Positions 4,742 through 30,435 of a DNA stretch of 41,869 bases are shown here, one piece after another. The stretch spans positions 1 to 41,869 of the forward strand of contig JAAFJW010000008.1 of assembly GCA_013298995.1 (NCBI GenBank), given 5' to 3'. Numbering within the stretch: position 1 is the first letter of the stretch; each line of letters starts with the position of its first letter. The translations under genes and the position numbers were made by a program. The notes beneath the pieces were generated by a model. It did no database searches, was not told where the DNA came from, and worked only from the letters and a program-made list of their open reading frames with translations. This DNA comes from Sphingobacteriales bacterium (lineage in GTDB: Bacteria > Bacteroidota > Bacteroidia > Sphingobacteriales > Sphingobacteriaceae).

Positions 4742-5107
4742 TTACAATTCAATTAATATTAAATCTAAATCTTCAATATTAGAAAAGCCTTTATCTGCTG
4801 TAATTAATGGAAGTTGGTAAACTAAACTAGTCGCAGCAATTATTGCATCTGGTAATTTAATCGTATATTTTCGTTTCAATTGTATGGTTTGGTCTTTTAT
4901 TTTAGTATTCCATTCAATTAAAAAACAATCATTAATAAGTTCATTAAGTTTTATTACGTCAGCATTTGATATTCCTTTAAAACCCAGTAATTCAATTTCT
5001 GATACAAAAGAAACACCAAAATTATATTTTAAAAAAGGTTCAACAGTTTTATTGCCCTCGTGTACATAAATTAAAAAATTTGTATCTGCAATAAAATCAA
5101 TCTTCAT
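4742..5107 (-). CDS. PIN-domain toxin (VapC-like) of a type II toxin-antitoxin pair
   Basis: A 121-residue PIN-domain protein, expected to be a Mg2+-dependent endoribonuclease. The acidic constellation of the fold is visible: Asp8 in FIADTNFLIY, Glu39 in VSEIELLGFKG, the aspartate of KLPDAIIAATS and the aspartate of LITADKGF. An ATG four codons further upstream (5119) is possible, but MKIDFIADTN at 5107 fits the family better. The start lies inside the last codons of the upstream small gene (11-nt overlap), the standard translational coupling of antitoxin and toxin. It sits in a repeat-rich accessory region. The PIN assignment is solid. Toxin activity and RNA target are inference. Confidence 0.82.
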   Translation of the reverse strand: MKIDFIADTNFLIYVHEGNKTVEPFLKYNFGVSFVSEIELLGFKGISNADVIKLNELINDCFLIEWNTKIKDQTIQLKRKYTIKLPDAIIAATSLVYQLPLITADKGFSNIEDLDLILIEL

Positions 5108-5264
5108 TTTCTCTAGCAATAATTTGATACGTTAAACCATCAATGTTTCTTTTCATTTTACCAAAATGTTTTGATAAATTACCAATTTTTACCGCCTTTT
5201 TAAACTTTTCGCTGAGAATTTTAGGTGTATCTTTTACGTTTGATTTATCAATTAAAACTGTCAT
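5097..5264 (-). CDS. Putative antitoxin of the PIN-domain pair
   Basis: A 55-residue basic protein (MTVLIDKSNVKDTPKILSEK...) encoded immediately upstream of, and overlapping by 11 nt, the PIN toxin. The open frame extends further upstream to 5315, but those residues (MFHCNLYFSIF...) look non-coding, and ATG 5264 gives a compact protein. I recognise no DNA-binding motif. The antitoxin role rests on its size, the overlap and the partner. It probably neutralises the PIN protein and may autoregulate the operon. Confidence 0.7.
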   Translation of the reverse strand: MTVLIDKSNVKDTPKILSEKFKKAVKIGNLSKHFGKMKRNIDGLTYQIIARENED

Positions 5265-5330
5265 ACTATAATTTTTTTTATCAAAAATACTAAAATAAAG
5301 GTTGCAATGAAACACACCGATCTTCGAGGT

Positions 5331-5374
5331 TCCCCCAATAGGGCCGCATTTTCCCTATAAAAAGTTTTAGAACA
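5331..5374 (+). repeat. 44-bp perfect inverted repeat, left copy
   Basis: The 44 bp from TCCCCCAATAGGGCCGC to AGTTTTAGAACA recur exactly, reverse-complemented, at 6794-6837. A degenerate version (CCCAATGGGGCTCAATTTTT) lies at about 5548-5570. It is followed by a diverged tandem copy of the region after the left repeat (compare 5403-5447 with 5591-5632). Confidence 0.85.
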
Positions 5375-5464
5375 GCAGCTTGTGTGAATTTCTACAAGAA
5401 AAATTGCAACTGTAAATCAAACAGTTAAAATCTTCTGTATAGATTATTAAACAACAAACCACTT

Positions 5465-5529
5465 GTCACTCTGAACGATTGAAGAGTCTCATCAACGTAT
5501 TTTAGACTCTTCACTTCGTTCAGAGTGAC
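5465..5529. repeat. 25/26-bp imperfect inverted repeat (stem-loop element)
   Basis: The left arm GTCACTCTGAACGATTGAAG continuing to AGTCT (5465-5489) pairs with the right arm at 5504-5529, with one indel and about one mismatch, around a 14-nt loop. Elements ending in TTCGTTCAGAGTGAC are common dispersed palindromes in Bacteroidota genomes. It lies between the antitoxin and the RAYT gene. A terminator role is possible but there is no T-run. Confidence 0.7.
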
Positions 5530-5647
5530 AGGGTTCTTCAGATTTTGCCCAATGGGGCTCAATTTTTCCTATAAAATTTTTATAGGAAAATTATATCTGC
5601 AAATCAATCAGTTAAAAGCTGCTGTATAGAGTTTGCAACCTCGAAGC

Positions 5648-5679: not shown

Positions 5680-6229
5680 CTAGCCATAATAACTCAACAC
5701 TAATAACCCTTTTCTAGTTCCAAAGTAATCGCCTGCGCTACTCAATAAATACTCTTCCTCTTTTTCTACCAAGCCAGCCCGTACTGGGTTTAGGTGTATG
5801 TAGTTTAATTTGGTATCAAAAAAATCTTTGGTAAAAATTTCCTCGCCGTGGTAACTTTCTTCCCAAAACCAAATTTTATCCTCTTTGGTAAGTAAAAAAT
5901 TTAACCATTCTCTTCGGCTTTCTTTAGCGTTTTGTTGTATGGCTTTTACAATGCTTTTTGCAGTAAATTTTTTAAAGTCTCTTATAATATCGCTCAAGTT
6001 TTCATTTTTGGCACTTATTATTAGATGGCAATGGTTGCTCATGATTACCCAGCCATAAATCTCTAATCCTTTATGCTCTTGGCAATAACGTAAACTTTCT
6101 AAAAGTATATCTGCATATAAGCGTCTTGTAAAAACCTGCCTACCGCAGGCAGGCATCTACCCATTGATGCACAGTAAATGTTACAAAATATACACCGGCT
6201 TGGTTTTTTATCGTGTTTGTAAATGCCAT
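5680..6229 (-). pseudogene. REP-associated tyrosine transposase (RAYT, Y1_Tnp), frame-broken by a palindrome insertion
   Basis: This encodes an IS200-like single-strand transposase of the RAYT group. The HUH motif (SNHCHLI) and the catalytic-tyrosine region (LNYIHLNPVRAGLV) are intact in the frame 5680-6156. The N-terminal strand (MAFTNTIKNQAGVYFVTFTV, then HQWVDA) is encoded in another frame from ATG 6229 and stops at a TAG inside the palindrome. Removing 19 nt (6136-6154) joins WVD to VFTRRLYADILLESL and gives a single 176-residue ORF with no other defect. A truncated product could still start at ATG 6156, but it would lack the first beta strand of the fold. REP-like hairpins flank the gene. 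Family assignment is strong and the inactivation mechanism is directly readable. Confidence 0.85.
6135..6153. repeat. 19-bp palindromic insert CCTGCCTACCGCAGGCAGG
   Basis: The palindrome (arms CCTGCCT/AGGCAGG) sits inside the RAYT reading frame and causes its frameshift. A longer member with the same outer 10 and 9 bases plus an 8-nt centre is at 26922-26948, so it belongs to a dispersed family. Confidence 0.8.
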
Positions 6230-6388: not shown

Positions 6389-6409
6389 TCGACTTTACAA
6401 AAGTCGAAC
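6387..6409. repeat. Perfect 10-bp hairpin
   Basis: GTTCGACTTT and AAAGTCGAAC surround a 3-nt loop, followed by AGCAGG. The trailing GTCGAACAGCAGG recurs at 6840-6852 beside the right 44-bp inverted repeat. Confidence 0.6.
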
Positions 6410-6417
6410 AGCAGGGA

Positions 6418-6521
6418 GTTTGTTGTTGTAAAGCTAGTATTTTGTTTTAAAATGCAAAGTTATAAACTTTGCTTATCTAAACTCACAAGTGACGCTGAAA
6501 AAGCTTAACACTTGCGAGAGC
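6418..6521 (+). repeat. 104-bp dispersed repeat, copy 1
   Basis: It begins GTTTGTTGTTGTAAAGC and ends CACTTGCGAGAGC. Inside are a near-palindrome GCAAAGTTATAAACTTTGC and a CAAGTG...CACTTG stem. Further copies lie at 6551-6654 and 9430-9533 in the same orientation. Confidence 0.85.
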
Positions 6522-6525
6522 GGGA

Positions 6526-6656
6526 GATTTGGTTAAGGTTTCAAAGAACGGTTTGTTGTTGTAAAGCTAGTATTTTGTTTTAAAATGCAAAGTTATAAAC
6601 TTTGCTTATCTAAACTCACAAGTGACGCTGAAAAAGCTTAACACTTGCGAGAGCAT
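6526..6656 (+). repeat. 131-bp direct repeat, left copy (contains 104-bp copy 2)
   Basis: Identical by eye to 9405-9535. Its first bases, GATTTGGTTAAGG, are RHS coding sequence on the minus strand (Leu-Asn-Gln-Ile in the copy at 9405), so this copy carries a scrap of the RHS gene away from the rest. The 104-bp repeat occupies 6551-6654. Confidence 0.85.
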
Positions 6657-6793
6657 GAGGGAGCTATTTTTACTTCTAACCAGAATCTCGAAAGAGTTCG
6701 TGACATCAATATGCAAACGGTTTTTTTCTAAAGACGATGCAAAGTAATAACAAACAATGCTTTTATAAAATTTAGGTAGGTTTGTAGGGCAGT

Positions 6794-6837
6794 TGTTCTA
6801 AAACTTTTTATAGGGAAAATGCGGCCCTATTGGGGGA
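6794..6837 (-). repeat. 44-bp perfect inverted repeat, right copy
   Basis: Exact reverse complement of 5331-5374. The similarity goes a few bases further with mismatches. Together the copies bracket the RAYT gene and the first two 104-bp repeats. Confidence 0.85.
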
Positions 6838-6852
6838 AAGTCGAACAGCAGG

Positions 6853-8810: not shown

Positions 8811-9424
8811 CTAACTATTAAAATTCTGCGTATTTGTAGGGTCTTGCACATAGTTATCGGGCGAGAGGAAACGGTGTAGCATAGGGTCGTATAACCTAGC
8901 GTTCATGTTAATAAGGCCTACACTTAATAAATGTTCGTGGCCGGTGTAGCCACGGTCGGTAATGAAAAAAGTGGTTAGTGGGGTGTTGTTGCCATTGGTT
9001 AATTTAACAAGGTTGCCCCAAGCATCAAACAATCTTTTTTCTTCTGCATAGCCTGTTGTGCCTGTTACCATTAATATAGTGCCTTGGTAATCACGGTGTA
9101 AATAGTACAGGTTTCTTCTCGACATTCCGCTAGGTATATGGAATTCTTCTTTCCATAGTGCTGGTGCGGTGTAGGCATCGCCACCTAGGTAAAAAGTAAA
9201 TGCGGTTACATCTACGTCTCTATCGTTGGTTATCTCCATGCTGCCATCTTCGCTGTAATGGCGGCGGTAGCGGCGTAGGGTTTGGTCGGTTTGCTCGCCT
9301 CCGTAAAACATGGTGCTACGCTCCTGCCCTGCATTGTACAAAAAGCTGATGCGGTCTTTCCCTTGCTCGTATATTTGGGCTGGGGTTTTAAAGGCGGTGT
9401 AGGTGATTTGGTTAAGGTTTCAAA
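8811..9424 (-). pseudogene. RHS repeat-associated core domain, middle fragment
   Basis: This encodes the RHS-associated core: LHRDYQGTILMVT, KRLFDAWGNLVKL, DRGYTGHEHL, LINMNARLYDP and HRFLSPDNYVQDPTNTQNFN. In an intact gene RYGYV would follow at once. Here a stop from the inserted cassette follows after one Ser codon. Upstream the frame is open to codons for LNQITYTAFKTPAQIY, then meets a TGA at 9425-9427, inside the 131-bp repeat. The N-terminal shell of the RHS protein (normally over 1000 residues) is therefore missing. A TTG at 9341 is the only start-like codon. Treated as a remnant that was once continuous with 7401-8352. Confidence 0.85.
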
Positions 9425-9535
9425 GAACGGTTTGTTGTTGTAAAGCTAGTATTTTGTTTTAAAATGCAAAGTTATAAACTTTGCTTATCTAAACTCACAA
9501 GTGACGCTGAAAAAGCTTAACACTTGCGAGAGCAT
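9405..9535 (+). repeat. 131-bp direct repeat, right copy (contains 104-bp copy 3)
   Basis: Matches 6526-6656. Here the first bases are continuous with the RHS reading frame, so this junction is where the repeat truncates the RHS gene. The two copies enclose the RHS core, cassette, toxin and immunity genes. Confidence 0.85.
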
Positions 9536-26709: not shown

Positions 26710-27392
26710 AGCTTTATTTTAAAATTTTTATAACAATATGGTAACATTGGCTATTAAAAACCAAAGGTGCAAATTATTTAATTGTTTTGGATAAATTGAT
26801 TACACAACATCAATAAAATGTAATATTTACTATTTGCTTAATTTTATTGGGGTATTGATGCGTTTTTTTATTTTTTTGAAAAACCAAGGCTGGTATTTCA
26901 TTACATCAGCTAGCCCCGCCACCTGCCTACCTGCGGTAAGCAGGCAGGCTGTCGGGTTTAGGTATGCAGGCTGGTGCTTTTTAATGCGGGTTTACTTTAC
27001 ACCGTATTTGCTACATTTAGGTGCTTATAAAATGGATATAATTTCGCAAAGTTTCGCAACAAAAAAAATCTTTGAGATAGGATATTTACCGCTCATATAC
27101 ATATTGCTGGCAAATAAATAAAGGCGAGGCCACCAAAAATAGAAAAGAATATACAATCAACAACCGTTTTGAAACTTTACACATATTGCCCAAAAGTGCC
27201 GATGAAAGTTGGGGTGGTTTTATCAATCAAGTTTAGATTCAAGAAATTACTAGCTCGGGGTATATTAAAATTCGAATTTTTTAGAGCTTAACCCAACAAA
27301 ATTTTATTTTTGCACTTAAAGTACTTGGCACAAGTATCAGCAGCTACAACAAATCGTATAAATACCTTAAACTATAACCCAGCCTAACCTTT
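26710..27392. other. Gene-free 683 bp upstream of clpP with a palindromic repeat and coding relics
   Basis: No intact gene. It contains the palindrome at 26922-26948, an inverted copy of the GTAAACCCGCATTAAAAA motif (about 26977-26995), and a plus-strand relic around 27132-27235 that reads KEYTINNRFETLHILPKSAD and on to ESWGGFINQV before a stop. The relic has protein-like composition but no start and no recognised family. Confidence 0.35.
26922..26948. repeat. 27-bp palindromic repeat, relative of the RAYT-breaking insert
   Basis: CCTGCCTACC and GCAGGCAGG are the same arms as at 6135-6153. Here an 8-nt centre (TGCGGTAA) is present between them. Confidence 0.7.
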
Positions 27393-30311: not shown

Positions 30312-30435
30312 TTTTTAAAAAGTTAATAGGTTTGTTAATAAATAAAGTACGGCGTGTTAAAACGCCCAAATCATTATAAAAAACAATTATTATAAACAGA
30401 ACTTGGGGTACTAATAATGCCAACGAAAAATTTAG

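Follow-up and report, generated by a model that had tools for sequence, protein, structure and literature searches.

The stretch of DNA analysed here (the window, 41,869 nt) is contig 190 of a genome of 2.78 Mb in 211 contigs, and carries on its minus strand a RAYT gene divided by a 19-bp palindrome. The features to which the analysis refers are the following:

5323-5379: left arm of a 57-nt inverted repeat around the RAYT gene (arms 93% complementary; a dispersed family)
5680-6134, minus strand: 3′ part of the divided RAYT gene, in which the NHCH and YIHLNP motifs lie (PF01797); listed as a 158-aa ORF from the ATG at 6156
6135-6153, plus-strand reading: 19-bp palindrome CCTGCCTACCGCAGGCAGG (7-bp arms, 5-nt centre ACCGC) in the RAYT gene; the next plus-strand base is C
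6155-6229, minus strand: 5′ part of the divided RAYT gene, MAFTNTIKNQAGVYFVTFTVHQWVD, for which 27 of the 30 relative loci gave an alignment
6789-6845: right arm of the 57-nt inverted repeat
26922-26948: 27-bp relative of the palindrome, CCTGCCTACCTGCGGTAAGCAGGCAGG, between the CTAGCCCCGCCA and CTGTCGGGTTTAG modules of a larger repeat
30348-30371: empty version (2-3 differences) of a junction that is filled by an 18-bp palindrome at L068, L079 and L088

Read on the minus strand, the frame that opens at the ATG at 6229 runs for 25 codons (MAFTNTIKNQAGVYFVTFTVHQWVD) before entering the palindrome (CCTGCCTGCGGTAGGCAGG, 6153-6135), inside which a TAG stop, read by hand, ends it. The remainder of the gene (FTRRLYADILLES...) lies in a different frame, within the 158-aa ORF at 5680-6156. 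Pfam Y1_Tnp (PF01797) matches this 3′ part (E 2.5e-9, profile positions 17-91 of 121), and both the HUH motif and the catalytic tyrosine motif of the family are present (NHCH and YIHLNP, as read from the ORF), while the N-terminal part is not complete in any one frame, being split by the 19 bp. A preliminary description of this DNA had proposed that excision of the 19 bp restores a single 176-residue ORF from the ATG at 6229, and the arithmetic bears this out: positions 6229 to 5680 span 550 nt, which less 19 leaves 177 codons, or 176 residues and a stop. The placement of the insert at 6136-6154 given there is equivalent to ours, because 6135 and 6154 are both C.

The junction was then compared with that of related genes. 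A protein search of 60 genomes (source included) returned a match in 39, about 30 residues at the start of the query being out of frame and thus uninformative. The two RAYT pieces were aligned separately to 30 relative loci (L001, L019-L047), comprising 29 loci in other genomes and the paralogue L001; the source genome has two RAYTs. Both flanks aligned in 27 of the 30 loci, and the short upstream piece had no match in the other three (L039, L040, L041). Exactly one codon joins the flanks in 25 of these 27 relatives (17 Val, 5 Ile, 3 Leu), as compared with 22 nt in the window; in the other two (L019, L022) the 19 bp are likewise absent, and the flanks lie 2 nt apart because of apparent frameshifts elsewhere in these genes (before the junction in L019, after it in L022). 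At L022 and L023, the empty junction could moreover be matched over 24 nt with 3 differences each. The window thus carries 19 surplus bases in the conserved WVD-VFTR motif, with nothing missing. A search for the insert in related RAYTs, which the preliminary description had put forward as a check, thus showed it to be absent from every relative in which the place could be read. We regard it as confirmed that the gene is split by the 19-bp palindrome, and as supported that this is a clean insertion. The gene is now probably a pseudogene. Apparent frameshifts were seen in two of its four closest relatives (L019 and L022, with none in L020 and L021), and the break is itself a modest event in a gene type that may often decay.

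The surroundings of the gene hold further repeats. Searching the genome with positions 5315-5400 gave 21 matches to the inverted-repeat family, both arms included and some of them partial. At 5467-5532, directly downstream of it, the DNA is palindromic (gtcactctgaacg...cgttcagagtgac). Two adjoining small ORFs at 4742-5315 on the minus strand may form a toxin-antitoxin pair, as one looks PIN-like by eye and the other like its small partner. A 134-nt direct repeat is present in three copies (6390-6656 and 9402-9535), two in tandem and the third 99% identical to the second.

Within the window, a scan for the 7-bp arms with a free 5-nt centre gave one mismatch-free occurrence, and allowing up to 3 mismatches gave 4 matches against 0.83 expected, a number reached by 0 of 100 shuffles; three of the four are overlapping readings of one element at 26922. 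The relative that the preliminary description had pointed to at this position is thus real, although it is a longer, 27-bp variant inside a larger repeat, and the sole ORF of at least 60 aa across it is a 95-aa frame with a TTG start. In the whole genome, CCTGCCT-N1..30-AGGCAGG has 66 matches (backwards control: 0). Among the matches listed, an 18-bp perfect palindrome, CCTGCCTGCGCAGGCAGG, makes up the majority, and some are the 27-bp form of 26922. The exact 19-mer is single-copy in the source genome, occurring in the RAYT gene only, which implies a donor outside this genome or a variant.

Reading 45 of these occurrences in 40 stretches placed many at junctions of recurring modules (e.g. GTTAACGACGGTAGCGG/CATCCTTTTT and CGTGTTA/AAACGCCC), with 1 of the 45 in an open frame of at least 100 aa and 9 in one of at least 80 aa. 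An uninterrupted 24-nt junction was found in 0.15 Mb of the genome's own sequence for 13 of 49 sites, against 1, 1 and 1 with mismatched flanks; nesting of palindromes plays a part in a few of the 13, with L012 matching itself. Near contig ends, the 18-bp or 27-bp palindrome adjoins TACTGTCTTAAAAAGCAAATAAAA at L071, L072, L096, L105 and L082; TACTGTCTTAAAAAGCAAATAAAA looks like the end of a multicopy insertion sequence, of which the palindrome may be the target.

The 19-mer is also present far outside the source genome. With at most one mismatch, it occurs in 11 of 61 same-family genomes (source included), with 24 sites in G030, 10 in G076, 5 in G032 and 4 in G080. The exact 19-mer occurs at 26 sites, spread over 13 of the 198 Bacteroidota genomes scanned, and is thus sparse in the phylum; the reversed pattern, as a control, occurs in 0 of the 198. 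In a species-level collection it was found in at least 118 stretches, of which the 80 that are named cover at least eight phyla, with some genomes repeated. By title, the carriers among the stretches named include Bacteroidota, Ignavibacteria, Patescibacteria (WWE3, SR1, Uhr-, Campbell-, Veblen- and Jorgensenbacteria), Beta- and Deltaproteobacteria, Acidobacteria, Planctomycetota, Omnitrophica, WOR-3/Stahlbacteria and Fermentibacteria. It is found in six viral contigs as well. The 19-mer is not random sequence: at equal base use, 257 billion bases would hold it about twice by chance.

To compare filled and empty junctions, we took 145 distinct exact sites with 40 nt on each side and searched 1.35 Mb for the joined 12+12 nt with at most 3 differences. 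An empty copy was found for 29 of the 145 sites, against 2, 3 and 1 of 145 when flanks of different sites were joined; of the 29, at least four should be set aside as artefacts (nested palindromes explain L154, L209 and one of L242, and L142 matches its own flank), and the remaining 116 sites had no empty copy in the sequence compared. Zero-difference empties lie in the filled site's own contig at L140, L144 (two) and L177. The filled and empty pairs that were read differ by +19 bp, with nothing lost and nothing duplicated. By these counts and those of the source genome, palindromes of this kind look like clean insertions at other places too, and the earlier proposal that such short palindromes can insert as very small pieces is supported. 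In the broad sense the 19-mer would qualify as a mobile palindromic unit, its identical sequence standing at unrelated sites for which matching empty sites exist. Some copies may have spread with a host repeat, since many of the neighbouring junctions are themselves repeats.

The insertion sites are polar. With the unit in the ACCGC orientation, the base that follows it is C at 90, T at 34, G at 17 and A at 4 of the 145 sites, a pyrimidine at 124 of 145. When flanks were grouped into 113 clusters, a pyrimidine stood at +1 in 93 (background 0.474, p 3e-14) and a purine at –1 in 72, the latter bias being the weaker (difference p 0.0026). The +1 bias makes the sites polar beyond what the palindromic arms alone would give, from which we infer a strand-specific process. 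An origin of the +1 C in extension of the stem was rejected, as G(–1) with C(+1) was seen 34 times against 34.8 expected. Insertion at hairpin tips, convincing by eye at L141, L203 and L229, showed at most a slight excess when tested: the best stem averaged 3.40 at the junction and 3.41 at +4, with averages of 2.85-3.12 elsewhere, stems of at least 6 numbered 12 and 14 against 5-12 of 136, folding placed 27 junctions in hairpin loops against a mean of 31.6 of 136 at positions at least 8 nt away, and a hairpin test that tolerates wobble pairs was positive for 32 of 113 junctions, with 19-35 when the position was shifted.

The preliminary description had also proposed a look at insertion points in other genes. 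Among 150 occurrences screened by open frames of at least 40 aa on both sides and judged by eye, no other clean frame-breaking insertion in a protein gene was recognised, so that coding targets are rare, purged or missed. At L181 (2000-3700), two exact 19-mers lie about 440 nt apart in a composite repeat, inside an open frame that by eye is cell-wall hydrolase-like; this was rejected as a clean intragenic insertion.

Taken together, these data make it probable that the RAYT gene lost its function when one copy of an ultra-short, dispersed palindromic unit inserted into it. Movement is read here from presence and absence, and for the RAYT gene from one draft assembly; the occurrence of the identical 19-mer at clean sites in several phyla suggests that pieces of DNA as small as 19 bp can move by themselves. 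As a short hairpin, the unit would be copied or mobilised through a cut-and-join reaction that is strand-specific and supplied in trans.

It is improbable that the 19 bp are instead the remnant of a larger element, such as the 27-bp form or the longer composite repeats, left after deletion between its inverted ends. Inverted pairs of the 27-bp form or its variants, about 80-90 bp apart, do occur (C209, C2, C83), and removal of two 4-nt blocks from the 27-bp form yields the 19-bp form. However, the identical 19-mer stands alone at unrelated sites in several phyla, where flanks inspected by eye contained no longer form, and the filled and empty junctions that were read are clean.

Quite improbable, too, is a REP (or RPE-like element) that is cognate to the RAYT and was moved by it into its own gene. 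Such a reading could draw on one RAYT subclass that, as passages of PMC6006769 describe, carries its own REPs within the gene and in frame, and on a 19-mer at L183 that lies 125 nt from a RAYT, with a RAYT-like ORF 2.5 kb from the unit at L229. Against it, neither end of the unit bears GT[AG]G or CGTC, and base counts at –1 to –6 and +1 to +6 over 145 sites show no GT[AG]G either. At an E threshold of 0.001, PF01797 has no match in the carriers G032 and G080 (5 and 4 sites at up to one mismatch), and in the scan of palindrome loci a RAYT lay less than 1 kb from the unit in the window and at L183 only. Moreover, the exact 19-mer is single-copy in the source genome, and the RAYT gene is flanked by a different, repeated inverted repeat. 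Because carriers exist with no Y1_Tnp match and RAYTs are uncommon beside the units, the RAYT is unlikely to be the mover, and it is probably a victim or bystander.

That the 158-aa ORF, with an alternative start in the palindrome, is a normal functional protein is highly improbable. It has an ATG at 6156 and a frame open to its end; such a start inside the insert would, however, yield a protein that presumably lacks the first strand of the Y1 fold, as we take it from the alignment. It is unlikely to be the normal form because the part it lacks is kept in relatives (the 25 of 27 joined by one codon are uninterrupted there) and gives a weak alignment, via L020, with the beginning of E. coli TnpA_REP (4er8; whole alignment E 0.0003, best stretch by itself 0.22). 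Equally hard to credit is an assembly or library artefact, which the 211-contig draft and the position of several palindrome-bearing repeats near contig ends might suggest, since the 19-mer and its one-mismatch variants recur in the records of many projects, isolates such as Pedobacter sp. Leaf170 among them.

With the RAYT as a bystander target of the inserted unit, the activity may come from small stand-alone GIY-YIG nucleases. When ORFs of at least 70 aa near the units were compared, the neighbour common to the most loci was a small GIY-YIG gene (6 loci). Such a gene was found at seven loci, within 54 nt of the 19-mer at six of them; the unbiased count is 3 of 4, because L164, L191 and L221 had seeded the search. 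At these three loci the order is a displaced 5′ tRNA-Arg(CCT) fragment with the 19-mer in its D-arm, the GIY-YIG ORF, and an intact tRNA-Arg. L212 has an equivalent arrangement of displaced and intact copies for tRNA-Leu, with no GIY-YIG match. At all four loci the displaced fragment is filled and the intact tRNA is empty, and an earlier reading of them as broken tRNA genes was rejected, as the fragments are displaced ones beside an intact gene. ARAGORN found no tRNA at the similar-looking site of L247.

To sample such loci blind to the palindrome, a GIY-YIG protein was searched against 118 genomes of the phylum, of which 18 matched at E 1e-15. The resulting set of 26 GIY-YIG loci comprises 24 of the 30 from that search together with L262 and L267, with five repeats of one place and L312 (no tRNA) left out. 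A partial tRNA copy, recognised by 11-mers in common, lies near an intact tRNA in 25 of the 26, and a hairpin (stem of at least 6 with at least 4 G-C pairs) lies by the partial copy in 17 of these 25, as compared with 38 of 774 windows taken there as controls. Terminators probably explain some of the 17 hairpins (L293, L296, L301, L306). Palindromes of the CCTGCC kind clearly interrupt the displaced copy at L285 (two), L286, L289, L290 (two copies) and L267, and other, different palindromes lie in displaced tRNA copies, e.g. at L298, L299, L300 and L305. By eye, many insertion points fall in D-, anticodon- or T-arm regions. Across L164, L191, L221, L267 and L285-L313, which belong to other Bacteroidota, the displaced tRNA copy often carries palindromes, several of them unrelated to the 19-mer.

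The association is partial. Five of eleven GIY-YIG loci checked (L263, L264, L265, L272, L193) had no tRNA in the stretch, and most solo palindromes have no GIY-YIG gene in the stretch examined. Nor do small GIY-YIG genes predict carriers within the family: at least 8 of the 11 carriers have them, but so do at least 23 of the 50 non-carriers (p 0.18). We nevertheless infer that a stand-alone GIY-YIG nuclease family in tRNA loci is the most promising source of the activity. A fuller model can be sketched only tentatively, and as a whole we think it rather unlikely, if possible: the CCTGCCT...AGGCAGG units and a wider set of palindromes of about 13-35 bp would be cross-phylum micro-mobile DNA, inserted in trans by GIY-YIG nucleases of tRNA loci. 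These would cut before a pyrimidine and a hairpin would be joined, destroying the displaced tRNA copy (as a target or a faulty tRNA), with stray events, such as that in the RAYT gene, leaving solo palindromes.

If a 19-bp hairpin inserts precisely, the lower size limit of mobile DNA falls below REPs, RPEs and MITEs, and frameshifts and new intergenic hairpins would have in these units a source that goes unnoticed. The identity of the 19-mer in unrelated phyla calls for an explanation of how so short a unit spreads and persists. As filled and empty copies stand in one contig, in displaced and intact tRNAs and in copies of repeats, both the target rule and the enzyme are directly testable. The RAYT case is one event inside a coding frame; the main interest lies in the unit itself, which is identical across phyla, has clean and polar sites and is partly tied to GIY-YIG genes of tRNA loci, with these as the hypothetical enzyme.

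A search of mostly open-access literature, chiefly top-ranked titles and the starts of abstracts, returned no description of the 19-mer or of palindromes in GIY-YIG/tRNA loci, and the strings CCTGC and GGCAGG are absent from the main text of PMC3733652. Among known systems, REPs and REPINs with their RAYTs (TnpA_REP) share with the present case short dispersed palindromes and the involvement of a RAYT gene. REPs, however, bear GT[AG]G at the foot of their hairpin and go with a cognate RAYT, whereas the 19-bp unit has no such foot, occurs in genomes with no Y1_Tnp match (G032, G080), is identical across phyla and breaks the frame, unlike the in-frame REPs of the one RAYT subclass mentioned above. 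The unit does not have the make-up of a MITE either, with its IS-derived terminal inverted repeats and target-site duplication: the filled and empty pairs read differ by the unit alone, and the whole unit is one hairpin. Rickettsia palindromic elements (RPEs) and CGTC-tagged REPs resemble it as palindromes inserted within genes, but RPE-1 inserts are called longer and RPEs are reported to be in frame, and the 19-bp unit has no CGTC end and is common to several phyla.

The RAYT gene itself is closest to RAYT subclass 2.6 by its length, an SS motif and its Bacteroidota setting, a comparison made by motif description. According to passages of PMC3733652 and PMC6006769, TIRtron/TIRYT and subclass 2.6 resemble it as RAYTs of Bacteroidetes that lie between inverted repeats of which the genome holds further copies, with a mean length of 179 and YIHxNP and SS motifs; in PMC6006769, the genes of the subclass have atypical flanking structures, copies of which lie elsewhere. 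The window gene has NHCH, WE and YIHLNP where the subclass table in that source has NH[LIV]H, WQ and YIH[QN]NP. This likeness concerns the victim gene and not the inserted unit. For the unit, the nearest parallels in size are mitochondrial: the double-hairpin elements, the repetitive hairpin elements of sponges (PMC2800124, in part) and the palindromes of Fusarium mitochondria are likewise very small, and their optional presence is taken as mobility, tiny mobile palindromes having been proposed for mitochondria in passages of PMC7218506. Those elements belong to organelle genomes and have other sequences, and the portions of these sources that we cite mention no identical unit across phyla, whereas the 19-mer described here is one.
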